Source: Rhizophagus irregularis (taxonomy: Eukaryota; Glomeromycota; Glomeromycetes; Glomerales; Glomeraceae). From it: a DNA stretch of 64,000 bases. The stretch spans positions 5,766,001 to 5,830,000 of the forward strand of contig NC_089430.1 in assembly GCF_026210795.1 (NCBI RefSeq), written 5' to 3'. A program made the position numbers and the translations under genes. Positions 4,777 to 60,606 of this stretch are shown in pieces. The stretch's first letter is position 1, and each line of letters begins with the position of its first letter. The notes under the pieces are model-generated. The model was given only the letters and a program-made list of their open reading frames with translations. It did no database searches and was not told the origin of the DNA.

Positions 4777-7074
4777 ATGGAATGTATAAAATGTAAATTT
4801 AAATGTAACGTTATATATTTTCAACAAAATTTCAACAATTGGACCAGTGGTAATAAATATATTGATAAATTTATTCAAGATACTCAACTATCAGCTCATT
4901 ATGATATAGAAACAGCATTAGAATGGATACCATATGATAGATTTTGTGATATTAAATATACTGCGGAAGGTAAAGTGTATAGAGCAAATTGGATTGATGG
5001 ATATATTTATGAATGGGATATTGAAATTCAAAATTGGAAAAGAATTGATCAAAATATATTTGTAACATTGAAAAGTTTAAATGATCCAGAAAATATTTCA
5101 CTCGAATTTATGAATATCAGTATGGTATATATATATTTATTTATTATTTAATTAATTTTAAAAAAACTCTTAATTTTTTACTAATACATTATATTTGTAG
5201 ATTAATAGGTTTTATGGAATAACTCAAGATCCAAAAACAAAAAATTATATGATAGTTTTGAGTGGTAAATGTAAAAAATGTAATCAAGTATGTAATGCAA
5301 TATACTTTCAAAAAAAATTTGAGAGTTGGACAAGTGGTAATGATGATATTGATAAATTTATTCAAGATACTCAATTATCAGTACATGATAATCATAATTT
5401 ATTTAATAAAGCAATAGAATGGATACCTTATAATAAATTTTATGATATTAAATATATTAAAAAAATTGGAGTATATAGAGCAAATTGGATTGATGGATAT
5501 ATTTATGAATGGGATAATGAAAATCAAAATTGGAAAAGATTTGCTCAAAATATGTTCGTGATCTTGAAAAGTTTAAATGATCCAAAAAATATTTCATCAG
5601 AATTTATGGATATCATTATGGTATATATATTTATTATTTAGCTAAATTTTAAAAAAAAATTTAATCTTTACTAATATTTTATATTTGTAGATTAATAGGC
5701 TTTATGGAATAACTCAAGACCCACAAACAAAAAATTATATGATGATTTTGAATTATAAGTATGACAAGTGTGAAAAATGTAATGGTATATGTAATGCAAT
5801 ACACTTTCAACAAAATTTTGAGAATTGGACTAGTGGCAATGATGTAGTTGATAATTTTATTCAAGATACTCAGCTATCAGCTCATCACAGTACAAAAGAA
5901 GCATTAGAATGGATATCTTATAATAGTTTTAGTAACATTAAATCTATTGTAATAGGTGGGTTTAGTAAGGTATATAAAGCAAATTGGATTGATGGGTACA
6001 TAAAGCATTGGGATTATAAAAATCAAAATTGGGTAAGAGAAGGTCAAAATATATTTGTATATTTGAGAAGTTTAAGTGATCCAAAAAATATTATATTGGA
6101 ATTTAAGAATAAGGTAAAATATATGTTATTTAATTGGAATTTTAAAAAATCAATTTTTACTAATGTATTATACTTGTAGATTAATAGGCCTTATGGAATA
6201 ACTCAAGATCCAAAGACAAAATATTATATGATGGTTCTTAGTGATGAATGTAAAATATGTAATCAAGCATGTGAAGTAATACACTTTCAACAAAACTTTG
6301 AAAGCTGGACTAGTGGTAATGATGACATTGATAAATTTATTCAAGATACTCAATTATTAGCTCATGATGATGCAAAAAAAGCATTAGAATGGATACCTTA
6401 TAATAGGTTATATAACATTAAACATATTGAAAAAATTAGAATGTATAGAGCAAATTGGATTGATGGATATTTTTATAAATGGGATAATGAAAATCAAGAT
6501 TGGAGCAGATATGGTAAAAATATGATTATAACTCTGAAAGTTTTAAATAATTATGTCACATTAGAATTTATGAATAAGGTAATATTTAATGAAATTTTGA
6601 AATTTTGATTTTACTATTTTACTAATATATTACTATATATTGTATTTGTAGATTAAAACGAATTATGAATTTTACGGAATAACTCAAGATCCACAAACAT
6701 TAAATTATATGATGGTTGTGATTGATAAATGTAAAAAATGCAACCGTATATGTAATTCAATTTACTTTCAACAAAATTTTGGAAATTGGACTAGTGGTAA
6801 TAATGATATTGATCAATTTATTCAAGATATTCAGTTATCAGTTCATTATAAGGTAACAGATGCATTAGAATGGATTCCTTATAATAGATTCTATAATATT
6901 GAGTATGTTGCAAGAGGTGGATTTGGCAAAGTATATAGAGCAAATTGGATTGATGGACGTATTGATAAATGGGATAATATAAATCAAAATTGGAAAAGAC
7001 ATGATGAAAATATGTTTGTAGCTCTGAAAAGTTTATGTTATTCAAAAAATATTACATTGGAATTTATGAATGAG
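4777..7074 (+). repeat. exon-repeat array A, five kinase N-lobe modules
   Basis: Five tandem exons of 348-423 bp separated by introns of 66-77 bp. All internal junctions are phase 0. Introns start with gtatat or gtaat-like donors, contain actaat near the 3' end and finish with ttgtag. Each module after the first opens with a segment like INRFYGITQDPKTKNYM, which is the opening of the C-lobe exon, and then switches to the Cys/WTSGN region. The repeat unit is therefore a chimera of the end of the N-lobe exon and the start of the C-lobe exon. Confidence 0.85.
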
Positions 7075-8170
7075 GTATTGTATGAATAATTTATTAACAA
7101 TATTTTTAATTATATTAATTTTATTATCACTTTTTCTGCCTTTATATATAGATGATATTTCATCATAAATTAGATCCTAATTATAGAATTATTAATTTCT
7201 ATGGAATAACTCAAGATCCAGAAACAAAAAATTATGTAATGGTTTTAGAATATGCAGATGATGGAAGTTTACGAAAATATTTGGATACAAGTTATAATAA
7301 ATTGAATTGGCAAAATAAAATCAATCATTTATTTGATATTATAACTGGGCTTAAATTTATTCACGAAAGTAATTTGATTCATCGAGACTTGCATGTTGGC
7401 AATATATTAAAACTTAAATTTAAAATCGCTATAACTGATATGGGATTGTGTAAGCCTGCAAACTGTAATTTGCAAAAAAACAACGTATATGGTGTTTTGC
7501 CTTATATAGCTCCCGAAATTTTACTAGGACGAGCTTATACAAAAGCTGCAGATATTTATAGTTTTGGTATAATGATGTATGAGGTAATCTCTGGTTTACC
7601 TCCTTTTCATGACGTAAGCCATGACGAAAACTTAGCAATAAAAATTTGTCAAGGACTTAGACCAAGGTTTGACATTAATGTACCTCAATTAATTGTGCAC
7701 TTAATTAAAAGATGCCTAGACGCAAATTCGTCAAAGAGACCAGAAGTAGAAGACATTAGATATATTTTATATATGTGGCGACATGAGCCAGATGAAAAAC
7801 AAACAACGGAATTACAAGCACAAATTAAAAAAGCAGATGCAATAAACGATAATTCATCAAATAATAGTATACCTTCAACATGTTTAGGATTATCATATAA
7901 AACACACTCGGAAGCTGTTTATACAAGTAGACTACTTAATTTTAATAATCTTCCTGAACCAAAGAACTCTGATGATTATTATAGATATAATGATAATATA
8001 ATTAGCATTGAATCTTCAGGTATTGTTTAATGAAAAAAAAAATAATTAAAATAAATACAAAAGAATACTAATTAAAATATTATTTATTAGTATTATTATC
8101 TCAACAAATTGATATTTCTCAATTGGACATTAATAATCTCCTTGAAACAAAAAATTCTGATGATGATTAA
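4777..8170 (+). CDS. kinase-like gene A: five N-lobe modules plus one kinase C-lobe
   Basis: Inferred exons: 4777-5124, 5201-5620, 5691-6113, 6180-6578, 6652-7074, 7152-8019 and 8091-8170, giving 986 residues in one frame. Exons 1-5 are repeats of one module with a Cys motif (CKKCNxxC), WTSGN-x-x-IDKFIQDTQLS, EWIPY, a glycine-loop region, and a VALK-like lysine. Only module 5 has a full loop (ARGGFGKVY); module 3 has IGGFSKVY; the others are degenerate. Exon 6 is the C-lobe: YGITQDPETKNYVMVLEYA hinge, LIHRDLHVGNIL catalytic loop, ITDMGLC (DMG in place of DFG), YIAPEILLG and AADIYSFGI. This is the protein-kinase fold expanded in Glomeromycotina. Substrate is unknown. The first Met lies where gene C has extra N-terminal residues, so the original start may be lost. 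The tail exon ends early at TAA compared with C and D. Confidence 0.8.
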
Positions 8171-9054
8171 TATAAACAAAATAGGAATATCCAGGTATTA
8201 ATCAAATATTTATAAAATATTTTGAGAATTTGAGATTTTTAAATACTAATAAATTTATTTTATTTAAATAGAATCTTTACAAATTGATATTTCTTAATTG
8301 AATTCTAACAAAGATGGTAAAAGTGTAAGTTATAAGATAATGGATAAAATGCATTATTTTCAAGATATTTTTTTGCATTATAATTTAAATTCTATTCAAT
8401 GCCTTGCTTTCTTTTCTGTATTATGATTTTATAATTTGATGTATTTTTTTTTATTCGTTTCAATAATTGAATTGCAACTTTATTTTTTATAAACCGTACA
8501 CTAATTTACTATGATGCAGTCCAACTACACTAATCCCTGTACTTTCACGCTATTAATTAGCGTTCACAGTTAAATTAATTTTATTCCGTGATTGGCAGAA
8601 TTGAACCTGTGACCTCATCATACTTAGGATATATGAGGGAATGCCACCTTAACGACTGCACTAGGGTGATCAGCGAAATTGAATGAGGAAGTATGAGAGT
8701 ACCATTAAATAGAACTAGGGTAATTTGGTATTGTTAGTGAGTTATAATATAATTATTGCATTATTCAGTAATTATTTATATATATTTTAAGTAATATTAT
8801 AGGGTTTATATTAAAAAGTTGATTTGTATTTTGTATTTTTATCAAATAATAAATTTTATGGTTTATTTTGAGTTTATTAGTTTTATTAAAGAAATATTAT
8901 ATTTAATGATCAAAATGAATTGATCCTGTAACATGTTAAGTGGTAATAATATAAAGATAAATATAAATATAATAGTTTGTATTAATTTTAGTAAAATATT
9001 AGATATGATGATAATGTTAAGTATAGTGATTTAAAAAAATTAGATTGGATGCTA
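8171..9054. other. intergenic, decayed kinase tail exon and SINE candidate
   Basis: At about 8271-8320 there is another diverged tail exon with an acceptor (ttaaatag) followed by a frame encoding ESLQIDIS and then TAA. It matches tail exons of genes C and D and appears dead. The rest is A+T-rich apart from the tRNA-like element near 8.6 kb. No gene is visible. Confidence 0.45.
8582..8685 (-). mobile_element. tRNA-like element, SINE candidate
   Basis: On the minus strand a box-A-like TAGTGCAGTCG (8663-8653) is followed by a box-B-like AGGTTCAATTC (8608-8598). The outer ends TGATCACC and GCCAATCA look like a mutated acceptor stem that once paired as TGATTGGC/GCCAATCA. The box spacing is longer than in a standard tRNA and arm pairing is poor, so it is not a functional tRNA by eye. 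The local G+C content is well above the flanks. A tRNA-derived short interspersed element is the likely explanation; an old tRNA pseudogene is the alternative. Confidence 0.4.
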
Positions 9055-36338: not shown

Positions 36339-38520
36339 TTTCTTTATTTTTTTTTGTTATTATTTATTGATGAACAATTTTTTCAACGGTGATAAGAGAT
36401 AAATTCAATATATAAAAACAAATCAAGCAAAAAAAAATATCTTTCGATCTTTTATAGATTCTGATAACTACGTTGTGAAACCTGAATATGCGTGTGTTTT
36501 TTCCTATAGAAGTTGATGAAGCAATAATGACGTAATTAAATATCCCTTAACGTTAAGATTTTAGGAATTTTACCATTTTGCAGATCATATATATATTAAA
36601 TTATAATCCGTAGCATATAAATTCCTTAGCTTCTTAGTATGCATCAGTTACGTTATATATACGACATCATACCTCACTAATTCACGAGTTTTTCTGAAAT
36701 TTTAGTGTCTCGAGCGCCAGATTCAGTTATCTCATCCAGTTGATACAGCTAATTACGAAAAATAAATGAAGAGGCTTAATAAGAGACCTTTTTAACAAGA
36801 TAATGAAAATATTTTTTATGGTAAGTTTATTACCTTAAAACAGAAAAGTTAAACCCTTAAAATATAAATTTCATTGTTTAAATGACTACATAGAACTTAT
36901 AAGTCATTATTTAATTATTTATTTATTATAGGTTTTATAAGCCAAACTGAATATTTATGTTATTTATGTAATAATAAGTTGGAGTAAAAGAATCAATTAT
37001 TGGCTCGGCAATATCAAACAGGGATTCTTTGAATTTTGTCTGAAGAAACTTGTCAAAATTTGATTATTTGAAGTACTGCTAAGCAGATTTATAAATACTC
37101 TTGTTCTTGATTAAAGATAAAATCGAGAAAATTATCGAATTAGTGAGAATGAGAGATTGGGTGATTTGTCGATTAGTACGACATAAAAGTTTTCACGACG
37201 TCATTATTTGAAGACTATTTTTTTAGAGAGTATTTCATATGAAAGATTTCTTTAGGTTCCTATTTCGATTTCAACCGATTTTAACGTTTCTACCGTAAGT
37301 TTTGTTATAGAAGTTTATTTTTGATACTTTTGGTTTATTATGAAGAGAGGATTTATCTTTTTATTTAAACTTTTTGGTAAATTTGCAATTTTTTATAACA
37401 ATTAATTCTAATTTAACTTCACTAATTGCTCATACATTCTTGTTTCTAAATATTTTAGTGTTTAATATAAAGGAAAGTTTTTTTTTTAAAGGAATAATTT
37501 ACCTTTTATTATAATCTAATAATTTTTTATATAATTTGTTGTTCTTCCCTAATAAATTTATTTTTTAATTAATGTGTGAGATAAATTTATATTATACTTA
37601 ATTTGATTTTAGTTGCTTTCTGGTATTTTTTATATAATTGATCGAAAAGTCACCTGATACACTAATTTGATACAGGAATTGCTTGTAACTTTTAAATTTG
37701 AAGAAAAGAATGAAAAGTAATTAAATTTAGTTATAATTACCAATCACACAAATTTGATTCTTTAAAATTAATAGAGCCAATCGAGCCATATGAAAAATTT
37801 AACACTTCGGAAGATAAAAAAAGTCTAGTGTTATTGCAAAGGCTCAGTTTTAATAAATATGCTATAACTATGGAGGGTTTGATCACTTCGATGTATTAAA
37901 ACAACAGTTAAAAAGTTACAAAATGAAAATTTTTTATTAAATTTTTACTAAAAGTTGCTATTAACAACTATGTAATTCACATTGACGTATCTTGTTTTAC
38001 GTGAACAATTGCTGAGGATGTTAATTTTATTCATGGTTTTTTTTTATAATCCATGTGAACAAGATTACAGAAAGAGTTAATTTTATTCATGGTTAAACTG
38101 TTGAATTAGCTCAGGTTCTTTTTAAATAAAACGTGCGTAAATTAAATTCTAAAGTAGAATTTATTTTATTATACAGAATAAGAAGCAGAATTTATACTAA
38201 TGCAGCTTGAATAAAAGCTGGTTTAACTAAATAACATTAACAAATCCATGTTTAGTTCATATATCAAAAAAGAAGTTTGTATTCACATTGTAGAATTAAT
38301 TTATTATTTAGAATCTCTAAAATCAGAAATACTAAATTATCAAATAAAAAACTTTTTGAACATTTGACGTAGTATTATTTTGTCGATCTATGTTACACTT
38401 ATGTCGTGCATGCGTAAATCGGAAAACGAAAAATTTTTTTGTGACATTCAGCTTTTTCTGCTGCTGTTGAGTTGCACATTTTTGTTAACTATAAAGTTTC
38501 TTAAATTTATCTATTGAACT
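36339..38520. other. intergenic, no gene seen
   Basis: A+T-rich with poly-T and poly-A tracts and no recognisable coding, RNA or repeat feature. About 37980-38110 contains two similar phrases (GTTAATTTTATTCATGGTTT and GTTAATTTTATTCATGGTTA). It includes whatever promoter the kinase pseudogene at 38521 once had. Confidence 0.4.
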
Positions 38521-39977
38521 ATGGATTATGGGGAATGCAAATATTGTAAACGAAAATATACCGGAAATGAATACTGTAAAGCATGTAATGTAAAACATTT
38601 CCAACAAAATTTTAAAAATTGGACTAGTGGTAATAACGACATTGACAAAATTTTTCAAGACAAACAACTATCAGCGAATTTTTATGATCAAGTATTAGAG
38701 TGGATACCTTACAATAAATTATATGATATTGAATATATTGCAAAAGGTGGTTTTGGAAAAGTTATAGAGCAAAATGGATTGATGGACATATATAGTATTG
38801 GGATAATAAAAATGAAAATTGGAAACGATATGCTTCCAATAAGTTTGTAGCTCTGAAAAGTTTAAAATTCTGAAAATATTACATTAGAATTTATCAATGA
38901 GGTATTACCTAATTTCTTAATTTAATGAAATTTTTAAATACGATTTTTACTAACTGATTTTTTAAATGTATATAGATAACAATGCACTGTAAGACTATTA
39001 TGGATGGCTCAATTTCCGTTTTTAGAGTTTATGGAATTACACAAGACCCAGAAACAAAAAATTACATGATGGTTCTGAATTATGCAGAGAATGGAAGTTT
39101 AAGAACTTATTTGGATAAAAATCATTATGAATTAACTTGGTATATTAAGATATCATATTTATGGCATATTACACTAGGACTTAAGAGTATTCATGAAAAA
39201 GAACTAATTCATCGAGATTTACATATTGGAAATCTACTTCATTTTTCAAGTGATAGTTCTATAAATGGTTTTACTTCTATAACCGGTATGGGATTATGTG
39301 AACCTGCAGATTATAATACATCGAAAAACACAAAAAACAGTATATACGGTGTTTTACCTTATATTGCTCCTGAAGTTTTAAGAGAACAAAATTATCCTAA
39401 AGTTGCTGATATTTATAGTTCGGTATAATTATGTATGAAGTAATTTCTGGACTACCTCCATACCATGATGTAAGCCATGATAAAAATTTAGTAATAAAAA
39501 TTTGTCAAGGACTTAGGCAAGATTCAGTAACTGGTAATATTAAAATACCTCAATTAATTGTGAGTTTAATTAAAAGATGCTTGGATGCAAATCCATTAAA
39601 TCGACCTACGGCAAAAGAAGTTCAAGTTGTTTTATATCGATGGGTTCTTTTGGTACCAGAAATACTAAAACAAATTGAAGAAGCAGAAGAAATCTACCAA
39701 CTAACAGTGTTCCATCAACTAGTTTATCATACTAAACACATTCCGAAGCTGTTTATACAAGTAGATTACTTAATTTTAATAATCTTCCAGAGCCAAAAAA
39801 TTCAGATGATTATTATGACGAACAAAATGATAATATGATTCAGGTAAATACTATAATAATTTTGTATGAATCAAATGTAAAAAATACTAATATATCTTAT
39901 TACATTAAATAGAATCTTTACAAATCGATATTTCTCAATTGGCAATTAAAGATAATGTTGTTACGTATATATTTTAA
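38521..39977 (+). pseudogene. kinase pseudogene B, single N-lobe module
   Basis: The layout of the family without the array: one N-lobe exon (38521-38901), a C-lobe exon (38976 to about 39842) and a tail exon (39913-39977, ESLQIDISQL). The start MDYGECKYCKRKY gives the fuller Cys motif of the family. The glycine loop (IAKGGFGKV) is intact, but one base is missing at about 38763, a TAG follows, and a second shift lies near 38866. In the C-lobe LIHRDLHIGNLL is present; the metal-binding motif is TGMG, lacking the Asp; a one-base loss at about 39420 breaks IYSFG; and a TAA lies near 39741. With at least three shifts and two stops this is a true pseudogene. Confidence 0.8.
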
Positions 39978-42563: not shown

Positions 42564-44364
42564 AGTAGTTATTCGAATGTAGAAAAAATTGGTTCACTAG
42601 AAAGAAGTGAAAATCGGAGTAGGTTAAATAGAAGTCGTTATTGGCGCAAACAACACTTGTACACACAGATGCATCAATCAAATCATTTTTGGGGGTGATA
42701 GTAGGTGCGACAAGCCGACAACTGCAACATACTGTATATTTTAGCTAGTGATCTACATATCTCTTTATACCAAAAAGGGAAATGTATGGTGACTGTCACC
42801 TATAGTCCAAAATTTGAAATTTTATTTATTTATATTGTGTAACTCATTTTTATTGCTGCGTGAACAGCAAAATTTTTTTTTGCCATATTACATGGAATTC
42901 TTAATAATTTTTTCTCAATTTTTTTAATTTTATTTAATATCTTTTTTTAGTGATATCAGATATGAATTTTTTTTTTTCATCAAAATAAATTTTATTCAAG
43001 ATTTTTACAATTATTAAAATTATTAAGTTAATCGCTTTGTAACTTTGCTACTGTTTTGAATATTAATGTCTTTTAATTTTACTAATAAGGAAAAAAAAAA
43101 GAGTGTAATAAGTACTTGTAAAATTTTTAGGTAAAAAAAAATCATGTAACACATAATCATGCGATGCCGTAAAAATCTAACATTACCTATTCACTAAACC
43201 GCTAGTAATAAACCTTTATAGTATTTGCCAACGAACCTTTTTATAATATGCCTCACAATTATCTTTCAGTCATATTTACGGAAATTTTTATTATCATAAT
43301 TCTTTATTATTTTATTAGTGTATGGCTAAAACGGTTATTAACAAGGTTCAGATTTTTAAAAAATATATTTTTTAAAAAGGTCAAAAGATCAAATTTCATT
43401 TCACAAAATAAAAATGTGGAAATATATATCCCGAAGTTAGCAAGTTTTCTTCAGATTTTAACAATTTTTCAAAATTGAAATGAAAAAAAAGTAGAACATG
43501 AAGCATTATATCTTTCGATCATGGAATTAAAAGTGTACATTTTTTTTAAAATTTAATCATTGGAAGTTTGCAAGAGAAAAAGTCTCGTTAGTAAGTTTTA
43601 ATGTTGCCTTATCAAATTATTTATTTGTATAAAATATTAAACTAGTTTATTGCGATTTAAAATAATTGACTTTGGATGTTCACCAATATTAATTTTTTAA
43701 AGTACAACGAATAGTACAGTATATTCTTTTTCTTTTTTTTATAATTATTATTCAAATCCGCAAGAATAAAATCACAGAATTCATAATACAAGTTTAAATC
43801 ATTTCATTTTCTAAGTATCAAATATAATGAAAAGTTTTTGCAATTATTTATTTATTTTTTTTTTTGAAAATCTATTACTATTTGATTTTTTAATACATTG
43901 TATCGAAGATTCTTTATACTAACGTTTAATTACTCTTTTCAGCTTAGGTCGTCTTTATAATGGGTGTCACGTGATATATAGTATAATGCTTGAAACATGT
44001 GATTCATGTGATTAGCGTGTGATTTTGTTACACGTAGTAATAATTTACTGAATGCATTAATTGTTTACACGGTTATTTTGGCGATTAATGGTTTGATGAT
44101 TCTTTCTTTATATTCTTATATTCCGTCATTATATCAAAAATAAAAATAAAAATTATATTGTGGTAACAAATAGACTAGTACCAATATAAATTTATAATAA
44201 TATCCAATTAAAAAAAAATTCAATACAGCTCAGAAATAAAGCCATTATTACTCAATTCTTAGAGCCGGATATAATTTTGGCCGAAATATTTTTTTTCTGC
44301 AAGTTATTTGTTTAATTAACCAACTTTATTTCAGCTTTAGCATCTTAAGTCTGTATCATTTTCT
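42564..44364. other. intergenic between AIG1 gene and kinase C
   Basis: Divergent upstream region of the double AIG1 gene (-) and kinase C (+). It contains the duplicated segment at 42890-43490. CTGTCACCTATAG near 42794 and an ACATGTGATTCATGTGATTAGCGTGTGA cluster near 43995-44025 are the only locally complex sequences. No additional gene is supported. Confidence 0.4.
42890..43490. repeat. duplicated segment, partner at 32230-32870
   Basis: Co-linear with 32230-32870 (landmarks given there). This copy carries a short open frame (43248-43478) that is not preserved in the partner, arguing that the duplicated unit is non-coding. Confidence 0.75.
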
Positions 44365-46578
44365 ATGAAAAGTCTCATGGATACGCTAATTAAGAAATTA
44401 AAACTAAATAAGAATTGCAAAAAATGTAAATTTAAGTGTAACACAATATATTTTCAACAAAATTTCAAAAATTGGACCAGTGGTAATGAATATATTGATA
44501 AATATATTCAAGATACTCAACTATCAGCCCATGAAGATCCAGAAAAAGCATTAGAGTGGATACCTTATAATAGATTTTATGACATTAAATATGGCAAAAA
44601 AACTGGAGTATATAGAGCAAATTGGACTGATGGATGTATTGACAGTTGGGATAATGAAAATCAAAATTGGAAAAGATTTAATAAAAATATGATTATCGCT
44701 CTCAAAAGTTTGAGTAATCCAAAAAGTTTTATATTAGAGGTTATAAATGAGGTATTATTTAATAAAATTTTGAAATTTTAATTTTTACTAAATTTACTAA
44801 TTTGTTGTATTTTTAGATTAAAACAGATTACGAATTATATGGAATCACTCAAAATCCACAAACAAAAAATTATATGATGGTATTGAATGATAAATGTAAA
44901 AAATGTAATCTCATGTGTAGTGTAATACACTTTAAACAAAATTTTGAAAGTTGGACTAGTGGTAATGATTATATTGATAAATTTATTCAAAATATTCAAT
45001 TATCAACACACAAATATGATGCATATAAAAAACCACTTATAGAATGGATACCTTATAATAAATTTTATGATATTGAATATATTGATATTGGAAAAGTATA
45101 TGCAAATTGGATTGATGGTCCTCTACGCGAGTGGAACAATAAAAATTTTAATTGGGAAAGAAATCAAAATGTGCTTGTGATGCTGAAACATTTAAGCGAT
45201 TTGAAAAATATTGCATCAGAAGTTGAGAATGAGGTATAATAAATTTACTATTTTGAAGTTTCAAAAGATTAATTTCTACTAATGTATTATATTTGTAGTT
45301 TATGTTACATAAAATTTATGGAATAACTCAAGAGCCACAAACCAAAAATTATATGATGGTGTTGAGTAATAAATGTAAAAAATGTAATTACATATGTAAT
45401 GCAATACATTTCCAACAAAATTTTGGAAGTTGGACTAGTGGTAATGATTATATTGATAAATTTATTCAAAATACACAAATATCAGCCCATGATGATGCAA
45501 AAGAAGCGTTAAAATGGATACCTTATGATAGCTTTTATAATATTAAATATATTTAAGAAATTGGAATATATAATGCATTTTGGATTGATGGAGGGGATAG
45601 TACAAATCGAAATGGGATAAGAAAGTTGGTAGATTTAAAAGGCTTAAGTGATCCAAAAAATATTACATCAGAATTGATGAATAAGGTATTTTAAATTATT
45701 AATTTAGGAAAATTTGAATCCTCAATTTTGCTAATATATTTGTATTTGTAGAACAATAGACTTTAGTGTATAACTCAATACCCAAAGACAGAATATTATA
45801 TGATGGTACTGAGTGGTGAGTGTAAAATATGTAACAAAACATGTGAAGCAATATACTTTCAACAAAATTTTGAATGCTGGACTAGTGGTAATGATTATAT
45901 TGATAAATTTATTCAAAGTACTCAAATATCAGCCCATTATAATGCAAAGAAAGCATTAGAATGGATACCTTATGATAAATTTTATGGTATTGAATATGTT
46001 GAGATTAGCAAAGTATATGTTGCAAATTGGATTGATGGTCCTCTACACAAGTGGAACAATAAAAATTTTAATTGGGAAAGAAATCAAAATGTGCTTGTGA
46101 TGCTGAAACATTTAAGCAATTTGAAAGATATTGCATCAGGAGTTGAAAATAAGGTATAATAAATTTACTATTTTGAAGTTTCAAAAGATTAATTTTTACT
46201 AATGCATTATATTTATAGTCTATATTACTTTATGGAATAACTCAAGAACCGGAAACAAAAAATTATATGATGGTTTTGAATTATATATGTAAAAAATGTA
46301 ATTATAAATGTAAAACAATACATTTTCAACAAATTTTTAAAAATTGGACTAGTGGTAATAATAATATTGACAAATTTATTCGAGATACTCAGCTATCAGC
46401 GCACGATATATCAGATGCATTAGAATGGATACCTTATGATAGATTGGATAATATTGAATATATTGCAAAAGGTGGATTTGCCAAGGTGTATAAAGCATAT
46501 TGGTCTAGTAAAAGTAGATTTATAGCTCTAAAAATTTTAAATAATTCAAAAAATATTACATTAGAATTTATGAATGAG
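44365..46578 (+). repeat. exon-repeat array C, five kinase N-lobe modules
   Basis: Exons of 360-417 bp. Modules 2 and 4 share the insert GPL(R/H)(E/K)WNNKNFNWERNQN, absent from the others, so they are sister copies separated by module 3: the duplication unit there was two modules. Introns after modules 2 and 4 are also nearly identical (GTATAATAAATTTACTATTT). Modules 3 and 4 carry nonsense codons. Confidence 0.8.
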
Positions 46579-47884
46579 GTAAATTAGTATATCATTTAAT
46601 AAAAATGTGAATATTTTAAATCTTACTAAATATGTTAAATTTTGATTTTTATAGATTATGTTGCACTATAAAGTAGATGTGAGTGATAAAATTATTAAAT
46701 TTTATGGAATAACTCAAGAACCAGAAACAAAAAATTATGGGATGGTTTTGGATTATGCAGAAAATGGAAGTTTGAGAAATTTTTTAAATATGAATCAATG
46801 TAAATTAGATTGGTATGATAAATTTAAATATTTATGGATTATTGCATATGGACTTAGTTTTATTCATCGAAATGAATTAATTCATCGAGATTTACATATT
46901 GGAAATATACTTCATACGGGTAATGATGTTAAAATAACTGACGTAGGATTATGTAAACCTGCGGATTATTTCGTATCAGAAAATACAAGAGACAAAATAT
47001 ATGGTAATTTACCCTATGTAGCTCCTGAAATTTTACGAGGAAAAAATTATACCAAAGCTGCAGATATTTATAGTTTTGGAATAGTTATGTATGAAGTAAT
47101 TTCCGAATTATCTCCATATCATGATTTAAGTCATGAAGGAAATTTAGCTATAAAAATTTGTCAAGGACTTAGACCAAGATTTAATATTAAAGTACCCGAA
47201 TTAATTATACATTTAATTAAAAGATGCTTAGATGCAAATCCATCAGAACGACCAACAGCATATGAAATTTACAAAATTTTACGCAGTTGGTGTGATAATC
47301 GTGTAACAGAAATACAAAAACAGATTAAAGAATCAGAAGAAATAAATAAGTTAGCAACTGACGGGATGTCTTCAACCAGCTTAGGATTTTTACATGAAAC
47401 AAATTCTGAAGCAATCTATACAAGTAGATTACTTAGTTTTGATAATCTTCCTAAGGCGAAAAATTCCGAAGCAATTTATACAAGTAGATTGCTTAGTTTT
47501 GATAATCTTCCCAAGGCCAAAAATTCTGATGATTATTATAAATACAAGGATAACATAATTAGCGTCGAATTTTCAGGTATTGTTAAATAAAAAAGTATAT
47601 AATCATAAAAAAAAATACTACTAAAAGATTATTTATTAAATAGCATCGTTATCTCAACAAATTGATGTTTCTCGATTGGACATTAATGATAGTAATCTTC
47701 CTGAACCAAAACATTCTGATTACGAACAAAATAATGACATTATAAGCATGGAATATTCAGGTATTAATTTAATACTCATAAAGGATTAAGATTTATAAGT
47801 ATTAACGAAATTTTATTTTGTTAAATAGAAACCTTACAAATTGATATTTCTCAATTGAATATCAATGAAGATGGTGAATTATAA
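44365..47884 (+). CDS. kinase-like gene C: five N-lobe modules plus one C-lobe, two modules with stops
   Basis: Inferred exons: 44365-44751, 44817-45233, 45299-45685, 45752-46153, 46219-46578, 46655-47576, 47644-47760 and 47829-47884. Start MKSLMDTLIKKLKLN leads into the Cys motif. Modules 1, 2 and 5 are open. Module 3 has TAA at 45554 in the glycine-loop region and module 4 has TAG at 45764 replacing the Tyr of YGITQ. All module junctions are phase 0, so skipping both gives 752 residues in frame. Module 5 has IAKGGFAKVY, with Ala for the third loop Gly, and FIALKIL. The C-lobe has LIHRDLHIGNIL, ITDVGLC (DVG for DFG), YVAPEILRG and AADIYSFGI. The tail carries a 20-residue duplication and two extra tail exons ending NEDGEL. 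Likely expressed only with exon skipping, or decaying. Confidence 0.7.
47402..47521 (+). repeat. 60-bp tandem duplication in the kinase C tail
   Basis: Two adjacent 60-bp copies encode NSEAIYTSRLLSFDNLPKAK twice, differing mainly at third codon positions. The corresponding part of genes A and D has a single copy (SEAIYTSRLLNF..LPEP). In frame, so the tail simply gains 20 residues. Confidence 0.85.
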
Positions 47885-54779: not shown

Positions 54780-57700
54780 ATGAATCCCTTTGTCAAAAGT
54801 ATCAAAAAGCTGACTACGTCATGTGATTGTGATCGTGAATGTAATGCAAAACGGTTTAACCAAAATTTTAAAAATTGGACTAGCGGTAATAATGATATTG
54901 ATAAATTTATTCAAAATACTCAGCTATCAGTTCATAAGTATAATGTGTGTCAAGCATTAGAATGGATACCTTATGGTAGACTTTATGATGTTAAATATAT
55001 TGCAGAAGATGATAAGTTTGGCAACGTGTACAGAGCAAATTGGTTTGATGGACGCCTAAATGGATGGAATGATGAAAGTCAAAATTGGGAAAGAAAAGGT
55101 CAAAATATGTTTGTAATTTTGAAAATTTTAAATGATCAAGCAAGTATTAATAAATTATATTTATTACATCATCACGCCATGGTAAATATTCATATTGTAC
55201 TGCGCCATTTGTGGAAAAACTGCCAGTTGAAATAGTTGATTTTTACTAATATTTCTAACTTTAATATATTGTAGATTGCAGTGCCTCATGAAGTTTATGG
55301 AATAACTCAAGATCCAGAAACCAAGAACTATATGGTAGTTTTGAATGATATATGTGAAAAATGTAATAATGTGTGTAATTCAATACATTTTCAACAAAAT
55401 TTTAAAAATTGGACTAGCGGTAATAATGATATTGATAAATTCATTCAAGATACTCAGCTGTCAGCACATACTTATTATGAGGTAAAAAATGCATTAGAAT
55501 GGATACCTTATGATAGACTTTATAATGTTACGGAAGATAATGAGTTTGGAAAAGTGTACAGAGCAAATTGGACTGATGGACGCCTAAATGAATGGAATTA
55601 TGGTAATCAAAATTGGAAAAGAAAAGATCAAAATATGTTTGTAATTCTGAAAATTTTAAATCTAGAAAGCATTAAATTTAAATTTAGATATAAGGTATAA
55701 TAAATTTATCGAAAGTTTCATTTTCTTTGTGAATTATAATATAAATTAATCACATTTACGATGCCATTTTGTGAAAAAAAAAGGTGTTTTAAGAAACAGA
55801 TGGTTGAATATTTTATTTTTACTAATACTTCTAACTTTAATATATTGTAGATTGCAGTATCTCATATAGTTTATGGAATAACTCAAGATCCAGAAACCAA
55901 GAACTATATGGTAGTTTTGAATGATATATGTGAAAAATGTAATAAAGTGTGTAATTCAATACATTTTCAACAAAATTTTAAAAATTGGACTAGTGGTAAT
56001 AATGATATTGATAAATTCATTCAAGATACTCAGCTATCTGCTCATGGTGGTGCAAGAAAGGTGTTAGAATGGATACCTTATGATAGACTTTATGATGTTA
56101 AATATATTACAAAAAATGAGTTTGGTAAAGTGTACAGAGCAAATTGGATTGACGGACGCCTAAATGGATGGAATGTTCTTTATCAAAAATGGGAAAGAAA
56201 AGATCAAAATATGTTTGTAATTCTGAAAATTTTAAATAATCAAGCAAGTATTAATAAAGTATATTTATTACATCATCATGCCATGGCAAATATTCATATT
56301 GTACTGCGCCATTTGTGGAAAAAATTGCTAGTTTGAAAAACAAATAATTGAAAATTCATTTTTACTAATATTTCTAATTTTAATATATTGTAGATTGTAG
56401 TGCCTCATGAAGTTTATGGAATAACTCAAGATCCAGAAACCAAGATCTATATGGAAGTTTTGAATGATATATGTGAAAAATGTAATAATATGTGTAATTC
56501 AATACATTTTCAACAAAATTTTAAAAATTGGACTAGCAGTAATAATGATATTGATAAAATCATTCAAGATACTCAGCTATTAGCACATACTTATTATGAG
56601 GTAAAAAATGCATTAGAATGGATACCTTATGATAGACTTTATAATGTTACGGAAGATAATGAGTTTGGCAAAGTGTACAGAGCAAATTGGACTGGTGGAC
56701 GCCTAAATAAATGGAATTATGATTGGAAAAGAAAAGATCAAAATATGTTTGTAATTCTGAAAATTTTAAATAATCCATCAAGTGTTACATTTGAACTTAT
56801 ATATAAGGTATAATAAATTTATTAAAAGTTTCATTTTTTTGTGAATTATTAATAATATTGTACTGGTTATTTTGTGAAAAAAATTTGCCAGTTGATTTAA
56901 AAGCAAATAAATAAAATTTTACTTTTACTGATATTTCTATTGTAGATTGCAGTACCTTATAAAGTTCATGGGATAACTCAAGATTCAGAAACTAGGAACT
57001 ATATGGTGGTTTTAGATTTCAATAAATGTGGAAAATGTAATAATGTGTGTAATTCAGTGCATTTTCAACGAAATTTTAAAAATTGGACTAGTGGTAATAA
57101 TGATATTGATAAATTCATTCAAGATACTCAGCTATCAGTACATACTTATTATGAGGTAAAAAATGCGTTAGAATGGATACCTTATGAAAGACTTTATGAT
57201 GTTAAATATATTGCAAAAGATGATGAGTTTGGCAAAATGTACAGAGCAAATTGGATTGATGGACGCCTAAATGAATGGAATGATGAAAATCAAAATTGGA
57301 AAAGAAAAGGTCAAAATATGTTTGTAATTCTGAAAATTTTAAATAACCCAGCAAGTATTTCATCAAAATATATAGATAAGGTATAATAAAATTATTAAAA
57401 GTTTATAATATAAATTAATCACATTGTACTATGCCATTTTGTGAAAAAAAAGTTGGTTTAATGAAACAGATGGTTGAATATTTCATTTTTACTAATACTT
57501 CTAACTTTAATATATTGTAGATTGTGGTAACTCATAAAGTTTATGGAATAACTCAGGATCCAGAAACCAAGAACTATATGGTAGTTTTGAATTATATATG
57601 CGAAAAATGTGATAAAGTATGTAACTCAATGCATTTTCAACAAAATTTTAAAGATTGGACTAGTGGTAATAATGATATTGATAAAATTATACAAGATACT

Positions 57701-59086
57701 CAGCTATCAGCACATACTTATTATAAGGTAAAAAATGTATTAGAATGGATACCTTATAATAGACTTTATAATATTAAATCAGAAGATGATGAGTTTGGCA
57801 AAGTGCACAGAGCAAATTGGATTGATGGAAATATTACATATAAAGATAATTGGTATTTTGACAGTAGTTGGAATGATAAAAATCAAGATTGGGATAGAAA
57901 AAATCAAAAAATGATAGTAATTCTGAAAATTTTAAATAATCCATCAAGCATTACATTAGAATTTATAAATAAGGTATAATAAATTTTCATTTTGTAAATC
58001 AATATTGTACTGCGCCATTTTGTAGTTAAAAAATTCATTTTTACTAATATTTCTAACTTTAATATATTGTAGATTGCAGTGCCTCATGAAGTTTATGGAA
58101 TAACTCAAGATCCAGAAACCAAGAACTATATGATAGTTTTGAATGATATATGTGAAAAATGTAATAAAGTGTGTAATTCAATACATTTTCAACAAAATTT
58201 TAGAAATTGGACTAGTGGTAATTATGATGTTGATAAGTTTATTCGAGATACTCAGCTATCAGATCATAACTATTATAAGGTAAAAAATGCATTAGAATGG
58301 ATACCTTATTATAGACTTTATGATGTTAAATATATTGCAGAAGAACATGAGTTTGGCAAAGTGTACAGAGCAAATTGGATTGATGGATATCTAAATGAAT
58401 GGAATGTTGAAAATCAAAATTGGGAAAGAAAAGATCAAAATATGTTTGTAATTCTGAAAATTTTAAATAATCCATCAAGTGTTACATTAGATTTTATAAA
58501 TAAGGTATAATAAATTTATCAATGTTTGTAAATTATAATATAAATTAATCACATTGTACTATGCCATTTTGTGAAAAGAAAAATTGCCAGTTGATTTAAA
58601 AACAAATTGATAAAATTTTACTTTTACTGATATTTCTACTTTAATACTATATTGTAGATTGCAGTATCTTATAAAGTTCGTGGGATAACTCAAGATCCAG
58701 AAACCAGAAACTATATGGTGGTTTTAGATTTCAATAAATGTGGAAAATGTGATGTTACATGCAATTCAATACATTTTCAACAAAATTTTAAAAATTGGGC
58801 CAGTGGTAATAATGATATCAATAAATTTATTCAAAATACTCAGCTATCAGTTCATGAGAATGATTGTGAAATATTGCATATATTAGAATGGATACCTTAT
58901 GATAGACTTTATGATATTAAATATATTGCAAAAGGTGGGTTTGGAAAAGTATATAGGGCAAGATGGATTGATGGTCATATAGATAAATGGAATAACTATA
59001 ATTGGAAAAGGAATGATCAAAACATGGTTGTAGCTCTGAAAAGTTTAAATAATTCAAGAAATATTACATTAGAATTTATGAATGAG
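54780..59086 (+). repeat. exon-repeat array D, eight kinase N-lobe modules
   Basis: Eight exons of 402-453 bp. Modules 2 to 7 are the most alike, including identical boundary text (VYGITQDPETKNYMVVLN, HFQQNFKNWTSGNNDIDK) and introns ending CTAACTTTAATATATTGTAG. This points to recent expansion or gene conversion in the array centre. Modules 5 and 8 share the variant VLDFNKCGKC, indicating a multi-module duplication unit of three. Module 6 carries an insert (NITYKDNWYFDSSWN). Confidence 0.85.
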
Positions 59087-60606
59087 GTAAGTTATTTTTA
59101 TTTTTATAATTATTTATTTAGGTATTAATACTTATTTATAATATCCATAGATTACATTACATCATAAAGTAAATTTGCATAAACGCTTTATTAAATTCTA
59201 TGGAATAACTCAAGAACCAAAGACAGAAAATTATGTTATGGTTTTAGATTATGCAGAAAATGGAAGTTTGCGAAATTATTTAGACATAAGTTATAACGAA
59301 TTAAGTTGGAGCGATAAGATTAATTATTTACATAGCATTGCACATGGTCTTAAAGATATTCATGAAAAAGAACTAATTCATCGAGATTTGCATATTGGTA
59401 ATATATTAAGGCTTAAAAATCTCACTTGTATAACTGATATGGGATTATGTAAACCTGCAGATTATAATGCATCGGATAATGCAAAAAACAAAATATATGG
59501 TATTTTACCTTATATTGCTCCCGAAATTTTACGTGGCCAAAATTATACTAAAGCTGCAGATATTTATAGTTTTGGTATAATAATGTATGAAGTTATTTCT
59601 GGATTACCTCCTTATTATAATATCAGTCACAATAATAATTTAGCAATAAGAATTTGTAAGGGACTTCGACCAAGGTTTAATACTAAAGTACCCCAATTGA
59701 TTGTGCATTTAATTAAAAGATGCTTGGATGCAAATCCATTAAAGCGACCAAATGCAATAGAAATTAAAAAAACTTTAAGTCAATGGTTTAGAGAATCATT
59801 TGAATCACAAGATAATAGTGAATATTATATTGATTCTCATTCAGAAATAAGAAAACAAATTAATGAAGCAAAAATAATTAATAATATGTTACAAACTAGC
59901 AGTGCATTATCAATCAATTTAGGAATATCATATGAAACCCATTCGGAAGCTATTTATACCAGTAGATTGCTTAATTTTTGTAGTCTTCCTGAGCCAGTAA
60001 ATTCTAATGATTATTACAAAGTCGAGGATAATATAATTAGCATGGAATCTTTAGGTATTGGTTAACAAAAAAAAATTCAAATTAATTAATTAATTGTAAA
60101 AAATACTAATATTGTTTTAATTCATTAAATAGAATCCTTACAAATTGATATTTCTCAATTGGAAAATAATAATTTTAATGAAGAAAATTCTAATGATAAT
60201 ATTAAAATGAAATCTTCAGGTATATTTTTTAAAAAAAAATAATTAAATCAATCATAAATATTTTAATAAATTTTTAATTCATTAAATAGAATCTTTACAA
60301 ATTGATAATAATAATTTTCCTGAACCAAATAATTCCTATGTTTCTTACAAAAAAATTGATGATTTGATTAGTATGAATTCTTCAGGTATCCATTAATAAT
60401 AAAATATTCAAATTATCATCTAAAAATGGTATTAATTTTTTATTTATTAAATAGAATCTCTACAAATTGATATTTCTCAACTGAACATTAGTAATGATGG
60501 TAACTATTTTTAAATATAAATAGAAAATAAGGCTACTATAAGTATAATGTACTTATTTTATTTGTTAGATCAGGATAGCAAATCTAAAGGCAAAGAAAAA
60601 ATTTAG
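54780..60606 (+). CDS. kinase-like gene D: eight N-lobe modules plus one kinase C-lobe
   Basis: Inferred exons: 54780-55181, 55275-55694, 55851-56258, 56394-56807, 56946-57380, 57521-57973, 58073-58504, 58658-59086, 59151-60054, 60133-60219, 60290-60385, 60455-60499 and 60569-60606; about 1520 residues, all in frame with no stop. ATG 54780 (MNPFVKSIKK) is the first Met. Modules 1-7 have an altered glycine loop (types AEDDKFGNVY, TEDNEFGKVY) and FVILKIL; module 8 has IAKGGFGKVYRARW and VVALKSL. The C-lobe has LIHRDLHIGNIL, ITDMGLC, YIAPEILRG, AADIYSFGI, and a C-terminal RPNAIEI helix. Three short tail exons with ESLQIDISQL-type starts follow, and the last encodes DQDSKSKGKEKI. The intact catalytic Lys, HRD Asp and DMG Asp suggest the terminal kinase can be active. 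The seven upstream modules cannot be kinases alone and may bind partners or ligands. Confidence 0.8.
60133..60606 (+). repeat. repeated tail exons of kinase D
   Basis: Exons 60133-60219, 60290-60385 and 60455-60499 each begin with ESLQID (the first G of the codon comes from the previous exon), and two of them end with SS before a phase 1 donor. All are symmetric (1,1), so copies can be added without frame change. The final exon 60569-60606 encodes a Lys-rich end (SKSKGKEKI). Related tail exons are in genes A (8091), B (39913) and C (47644, 47829). Confidence 0.75.

Follow-up and report, generated by a model that had tools for sequence, protein, structure and literature searches.

A 64 000-nucleotide (nt) stretch of the Rhizophagus irregularis genome (contig NC_089430.1, hereafter C2, positions 5766001–5830000; referred to as the window, in which positions are counted from its first letter) contains three genes, named A, C and D, in which the amino-terminal lobe (N-lobe) of a protein kinase recurs several times ahead of one carboxy-terminal lobe (C-lobe). 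We consider it fairly likely that such N-lobe-repeat kinases are each one spliced gene encoding a long soluble protein, made of several pseudo-N-lobes and one complete kinase domain at the end. The kinase domain is generally regarded as a two-lobed unit, whose N-lobe has no life without its C-lobe. Here, at least three kinase subfamilies and more than 100 gene clusters seem to use the N-lobe as a repeat domain, the copy adjacent to the C-lobe being catalytic and the others almost never so.

Rebuilt one exon at a time, gene D (54780–60606, forward strand) combines eight module exons with a C-lobe exon and four tail exons in a frame of 1520 residues that only the terminal stop interrupts. This length is identical to that of the initial annotation of this DNA; an alternative tail ending at 60513 gives 1512 amino acids. 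Exon 1 (54780–55181) provides the start codon, a short N terminus and pseudo-N-lobe module 1, with its Cys motif, WTSGN, EWIPY, a degenerate glycine loop and VILK. Each of the next seven exons carries strands β4–β5 of one module followed by the module after it, namely modules 1 and 2 in exon 2 (55275–55694), 2 and 3 in exon 3 (55851–56258), 3 and 4 in exon 4 (56394–56807), 4 and 5 in exon 5 (56946–57380), 5 and 6 in exon 6 (57521–57973), 6 and 7 in exon 7 (58073–58504) and 7 and 8 in exon 8 (58658–59086). The C-lobe exon (59151–60054) brings a full αC–β4 segment, β4–β5 and the motifs HRDLHIGN, DMG, APE and DIYSFG, and is followed by tail exons at 60133–60219, 60290–60385, 60455–60499 and 60569–60606, the first three of which repeat an ESLQID segment. 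All module-to-module joins are in phase 0, and the introns between modules and before the C-lobe measure 64–156 nt. A glycine-loop region and VALK had initially been assigned to every module of D; in fact, only module 8, the sole catalytic-type N-lobe of the gene, reads AKGGFGKVY and VVALK (with FMNE placing the αC Glu at the splice site), whereas modules 1–7 read VILK and have no intact glycine loop. Pfam family PF07714 matches the C-lobe exon at an E value of 7.7e-39, with the catalytic HRD, DxG and APE present, and exon 8 alone at 0.037, below the cut-off. A membrane receptor was rejected for D: the highest mean hydropathy over 19 residues in the joined frame from 54780 is 1.29, and no stretch is strongly hydrophobic.

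The repeated exon starts, just past the acceptor, with the end of helix αC and β4–β5 of the previous lobe (YGITQDPETKNYMVVL, IAVPHEVYGITQDPETKNYMVVL), and continues within a few residues with CxxCxxxC, FQQNFKNWTSGN, the helix IDKFIQDTQL, EWIPY, β1–β3 and the first half of αC. The motif order originally described is retained, to which the β4–β5 of the preceding lobe must be added at the exon start. The intron lies within αC, in phase 0, directly after the αC Glu codon. Strand and helix names follow those of the kinase fold and the order of elements in an AlphaFold2 model of one exon. On this assignment, each module is a full predicted N-lobe (β1–β5) split over two exons, β5 leading to the next Cys motif without an intervening C-lobe.

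This layout is not restricted to genes A, C and D. Throughout the genome (146.7 Mb, 32 contigs), a DNA pattern for the β5-to-Cys junction was found at 94 places and its reversed control at 0, and junction-spanning protein queries from three subfamilies (types 1, 2 and 3) returned at least 150 matches each. For type 1, at least 323 junction places fall into 78 clusters, 60 of which have two or more; for types 2 and 3 together, the figures are at least 268 places and 114 clusters, 64 of which have two or more. Genome-wide, at least 124 clusters contain two or more junctions, and the places are spread over at least 26 of the 32 contigs; the clusters were merged from the listed positions by a 2.5 kb rule, which may divide a gene or fuse neighbouring ones, and the matches listed include at least one (C25:1689596) that fails to span the junction. 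The N-lobe-repeat layout is therefore found in at least three kinase subfamilies. As a side observation, C2 displays between about 4.5 and 5.9 Mb a megabase-scale cluster of at least 40 type-1 array clusters with at least 154 junction places, inside which the window lies.

The loci fetched from the genome comprised 22 type-1 arrays with extensions (L001–L020, L039, L040), 6 type-2 loci and 16 controls. The latter, kinases chosen from C-lobe matches (L021–L036), proved to be 14 single-N-lobe kinases and two arrays of other subfamilies. The first set of 27 arrays consists of genes A, C and D, the 22 fetched type-1 arrays and the two found among controls. Sampled type-1 arrays displayed 4 to 16 module matches each. 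Seven arrays start less than 100 nt from the edge of the fetched stretch, which makes their module counts lower bounds; the 16 matches of L004 correspond to 15 modules, one of them frameshifted. In this same array (G000:C2:5131500-5144500), near-identical modules seem to alternate in blocks, which suggests that several modules were duplicated together recently. At L033 (G000:C5:3321000-3323600), two junction matches lie inside one open frame of 330 amino acids, and two modules may share one intronless exon.

Splice sites follow a strongly conserved consensus, with T(G/A)AG before and GTATAATA after the donor cut, and TTTGTAG before and ATT after the acceptor cut. When the best donor and the best acceptor were picked independently of frame, they agreed in frame at 232 of the 245 junctions, those of single-lobe kinases among them, and all 232 were in phase 0. 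With a generic, untrained consensus, applied to junctions of near-complete modules only, a fraction of 0.87 of the 217 array junctions was in frame versus 0.52 for all GT/AG pairs, and 0.76 versus 0.50 for the 12 junctions of single kinases. Clean array introns are mostly of 60–95 nt (183 of 216; the 33 longer ones belong mainly to L004, L014 and gene D), which hardly leaves space for separate genes. In 17 of the 25 type-1 arrays, stops and failed joins were both absent. These features lead us to infer that one transcript carries all modules of an array, the pseudo-N-lobes probably being spliced in line to one active kinase.

The C-lobe was claimed to be supplied once, after the string of modules, and a single C-lobe indeed stands at the 3′ end of all 27 arrays of the first set and of 6 of 6 later ones. 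The module next to it differs from nearly all the others (partial hidden Markov model matches being excluded from the glycine-loop, Glu and Lys counts). In the first set, the glycine loop is present in 27 of 27 last modules and in 3 of 197 upstream modules; the search expression matched four of the latter, including one in L017 that lay outside the loop and was removed as stray, and the remaining cases are two modules of L007, one of which carries a stop, and module 3 of gene A. Likewise, GG occupies the corresponding alignment column in 24/24 last and 2/189 upstream modules, and the αC Glu codon is found in 26/26 versus 73/185. Single-lobe kinases have the glycine loop in 11 of 12 cases and the αC Glu in 11 of 11, and the same rule is seen in types 2 and 3 (glycine loop in 8/8 last and 1/45 upstream modules, L027 and L033 being counted again). 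The distance between splice site and GITQ also differs; scored on clean phase-0 joins with a recognized GITQ only, it spans 2–11 residues in 188 upstream exons and 15–17 in 26 array C-lobe exons, so that about nine residues of the αC–β4 segment are missing from upstream lobes. In kinases, the N-lobe is tied to the C-lobe by this segment. Upstream modules thus do not qualify as kinases, the glycine loop being nearly always gone and no C-lobe being their own (one per array, 27/27). Among the few upstream modules retaining a GG loop are module 4 of L048 and modules 4 and 8 of L007.

Non-catalytic does not mean unconstrained, as the conservation of upstream modules varies sharply between regions. 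Stop-bearing modules and partial matches were excluded from the measurements of Cys conservation and of the ratio of nonsynonymous to synonymous rates (dN/dS, or ω), linker included, and L027 and L033 from those of Cys conservation, region-wise ω, last-module rates and the linker. Considered as candidate zinc ligands, the three cysteines of the type-1 Cys motif are kept in 186/186, 184/187 and 187/188 upstream modules, and a CxxC..CxxC-like pattern is found in 41/41 type-2 upstream modules (with an expression permitting Tyr as the third Cys). Within 24 arrays, with stops excluded and bootstrap intervals, upstream ω amounts to 0.27 (0.21–0.32) for EWIPY, 0.44 (0.37–0.53) for β4–5, 0.48 (0.40–0.60) for the helix and 0.49 (0.43–0.55) for WTSGN, and to 0.89 (0.72–1.07) for the glycine loop, 1.01 (0.84–1.18) for β3 and 0.96 (0.83–1.12) for αC, the elements of the adenosine triphosphate (ATP) site. 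Last modules display values of 0.39 for αC and β3 and 0.27 for the glycine-loop/β2 stretch, and WTSGN, helix and β4–5 evolve upstream at about the same rate as in these catalytic modules. These region-wise values indicate that upstream modules are held to a scaffold and largely released from catalysis; read from their codons, they are constrained, putatively non-catalytic pseudo-N-lobes. Their non-catalytic nature is in line with the initial annotation. Since the overall upstream dN/dS is just mildly below 1 (median 0.64 by counting, 0.79 corrected, 0.80 with stops excluded), selection is claimed region by region only.

The linker between helix and EWIPY stands apart, with an upstream ω of 1.86 (1.65–2.14). 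An alignment artefact was considered and rejected, as linkers of equal length still gave 1.87 (1.29–2.30) over 332 pairs. The value was 1.87 (1.21–2.53) in the 51 closer equal-length pairs and 0.54 (0.00–1.47) in the 11 pairs differing by at most 10%, which are too few; the neutral yardstick is fourfold sites, which may carry codon bias. As the linker also exceeds 1 among last modules (1.26), its fast evolution is a property of the family and is not specific to upstream modules. It hints at a possible role in recognition, and the repertoire-type system first proposed finds no other echo than this hint.

With respect to origin, DNA repeats inside gene D span introns as well as exons (exons 2 and 4 share 97% identity across 300 nt covering the intron end and the first half of the exon), which points to duplication of exon-plus-intron units. 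We infer an in-frame deletion from β5 to the next Cys motif, which would have been followed by tandem amplification. A tree of 128 modules was drawn from a thinned sample (eight type-1 locus sets, single-lobe kinases, loci of types 2 and 3; stop-bearing rows omitted). Upstream modules mostly sort in it according to array, or to pairs of related arrays, and the three subfamilies are separate. The branches of types 2 and 3 are starred (99), and three single-lobe kinases join type 1 in a starred set (95); support is weak at the deep root (58), with few columns and a program warning of long branches meeting. In this tree, module 4 of L048 pairs with the last module, as if copied from or into it.

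How such a protein might work can be sketched as follows. The repeat exon fuses β4–β5 of one lobe to the Cys motif and β1–β3 of the next, the C-lobe being removed and the αC–β4 segment shortened, so that a unit of this kind could fold as an N-lobe on its own. Arrays would lengthen and shorten through tandem duplication of exon-plus-intron units, phase 0-0 preserving the open frame. The inactive repeats could act as multivalent binding or assembly units, most likely contacting partners or each other through candidate surfaces such as the Cys motif, the WTSGN helix and the variable linker, and might thereby place or gate the single kinase output. It is possible, albeit doubtful, to go further and see the kinase N-lobe as a free-standing repeat domain that replaces WD40, LRR or ankyrin repeats: in more than 100 clusters, arrays of pseudo-N-lobes with hypervariable linkers would sense partners or cues and act on the one kinase output of their array, as a repertoire growing by unequal crossing-over of phase-0 exons.

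Several points weigh against the reading of arrays as single long proteins with pseudo-N-lobes. The structural evidence comes from an AlphaFold2 model of exon 7 of gene D (17 window rows), which presents β4, β5, the WTSGN helix, β1, β2, a hairpin insert and β3 in the expected order, at low confidence (predicted local distance difference test 62, predicted template modelling score 0.58). Foldseek found no match to this model at E 0.001. The 50 rows listed by VIA-align are all kinases, whose N-lobes are the aligned part to judge from the ranges, and the best match, RIPK2, has a weak Z of 3.4 (55 residues, root mean square deviation 3.1, 29% identity); the model is at most suggestive of an N-lobe fold for this exon. 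The absence of any C-lobe between modules was observed with a script that starts a new gene after every C-lobe, and the splice matrices were trained on phase-0 sites, which makes them partly circular. The splice-to-GITQ stretch of 13 single-lobe kinases covers 9–26 residues (two at 9) and slightly overlaps the upstream range, and the β3 Lys, retained in 174 of 197 upstream modules according to the search expression, is poorly predicted by neutral drift at that site. At least one lesion (a stop, or a failed join, either by itself or together with a broken or partial module) affects 8 of the 25 type-1 arrays, namely L004, L007, L011, L012, L013, L017, L039, which is clearly degenerate, and gene C. 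Even arrays counted as clean include oddities: two modules of L003 are separated by a 518-nt gap, L014 has a 247-nt intron whose donor is poor, and the L020 C-lobe was matched in two pieces. In gene D itself, the exon 1 donor, ATG followed by GTAAAT, scores −2 with the trained matrix and is weak. Exon skipping or internal starts are possible in arrays, and the binding or assembly function proposed for upstream modules is putative.

Upstream modules could also be functionless passengers, kept open because a stop or a frameshift would kill the terminal kinase of the same frame. Under neutral drift simulated at half the observed divergence, a module would gather 3.1 stops and 4% of modules would be stop-free, whereas 202 of 208 upstream matches are free of stops (6 with a stop; 11 partial). 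Protection of the downstream kinase could by itself explain these open frames, and it would fit the overall ω of 0.80 and the near-neutral glycine loop, β3 and αC. However, passengers should evolve at a uniform near-neutral rate, and the intervals for EWIPY (0.27), WTSGN (0.49) and β4–5 (0.44) lie below those of the ATP-site elements, with WTSGN, helix and β4–5 matching the rates of catalytic last modules. We therefore judge this explanation unlikely, although a weaker form of it, with selection just against misfolding, remains. The same drift figures bear on a scenario of decayed relics, in which tandem kinase duplicates without C-lobes are becoming pseudogenes. The two stops of gene C, the state of L039 and the lesions in 8 of 25 type-1 arrays would suit it, but the 17 clean arrays, the stop-free upstream matches and the recurrence of the same junction and rule in other subfamilies make it scarcely credible. 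Indeed, the disruptions and neutral evolution throughout that mark pseudogenes are not what arrays overall, or genes A and D, display, while gene C and L039 are disrupted, as are six other arrays in part.

A different alternative would have the modules serve as mutually exclusive exons, each spliced to the single C-lobe exon so as to offer a choice of kinases, in a logic analogous to that of Dscam. Phase 0-0 at 232 of 245 junctions would let most modules join the C-lobe exon in frame; this exon supplies the full αC–β4 segment, and the retained β3 Lys (174/197) would make sense. Yet most of the resulting kinases would be dead, given that 3 of 197 upstream modules keep the glycine loop, that the αC Glu is often lost and that αC and β3 are near-neutral, and the β4–β5 of repeat exons would be redundant, despite the purifying selection acting on it (0.44). 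This option is, in our opinion, quite improbable.

Taking arrays as N-lobe-repeat kinases, their closest counterparts differ in what is repeated. In tandem kinase-pseudokinase proteins (TKPs of plants, the JAK family), whole two-lobed domains are repeated, usually two. The arrays resemble these in stringing inactive domains of kinase origin onto an active kinase, but only the N-lobe repeats, with up to 16 matches per array, and the C-lobe comes once, so that the arrays are not two-lobed tandems. Fungal NACHT-WD40 proteins are repeat-domain receptors with near-identical repeats; they too combine many similar repeats, with variable positions in each, and one signalling domain, whereas half a kinase takes the place of WD40, ANK or TPR as the repeat in the arrays. 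Scans of three exons of D and one of A detected none of the latter domains and no switch domain. Pfam named no family on upstream module 7 of D and gave two unrelated sub-threshold matches only on module 2 of gene A, and NCBIfam returned nothing on exons 7 and 8 of D. Domain annotation hence hides the arrays: among the scanned exons of D, Pfam named just the C-lobe exon. The RIPK2-like N-lobe, the best structural match on second look, would occur here as a module without an attached C-lobe. An expansion of PF07714 (tyrosine-kinase-like) kinases in R. irregularis has already been published (PMC6123716, PMC4219462), and the last module of an array with its C-lobe is such a kinase; repeated N-lobes go unmentioned in their passages on this expansion. 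More generally, no description of repeated N-lobes with a single C-lobe was found in searches of open-access papers; the layout is apparently undescribed, as the initial annotation had also held. The kinase expansion of an arbuscular mycorrhizal fungus thereby gains a concrete, testable architecture.

The two other arrays of the window lie on the same strand. Gene A (4777–8027, forward strand) has five modules, in exons at 4777–5124, 5201–5620, 5691–6113, 6180–6578 and 6652–7074 (exon ends read from sequence), and a C-lobe exon from 7152, with zero in-frame stops and zero failed joins. Gene C (44341–47587, forward strand) also has five modules and one C-lobe, but in-frame stops occur in module 3 (codon at position 45554) and at 45764 (start of module 4), so that no single frame runs through its five modules. 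Of the three genes described as strings of modules, A and D are thus clean, while C, on its sequence, appears to be broken or to have skipped exons.

Some minor features were also noted in the window. Behind the C-lobe of gene D, the ESLQID-type tail exon is tandemly repeated (60133–60513), and small exons resembling this tail are visible behind gene A (about 8110–8310) and gene C (about 47645–47880). Finally, an apparent pseudogene at 38518–39855 corresponds to a kinase of the same family with one N-lobe, in which frameshifts and stops occur.

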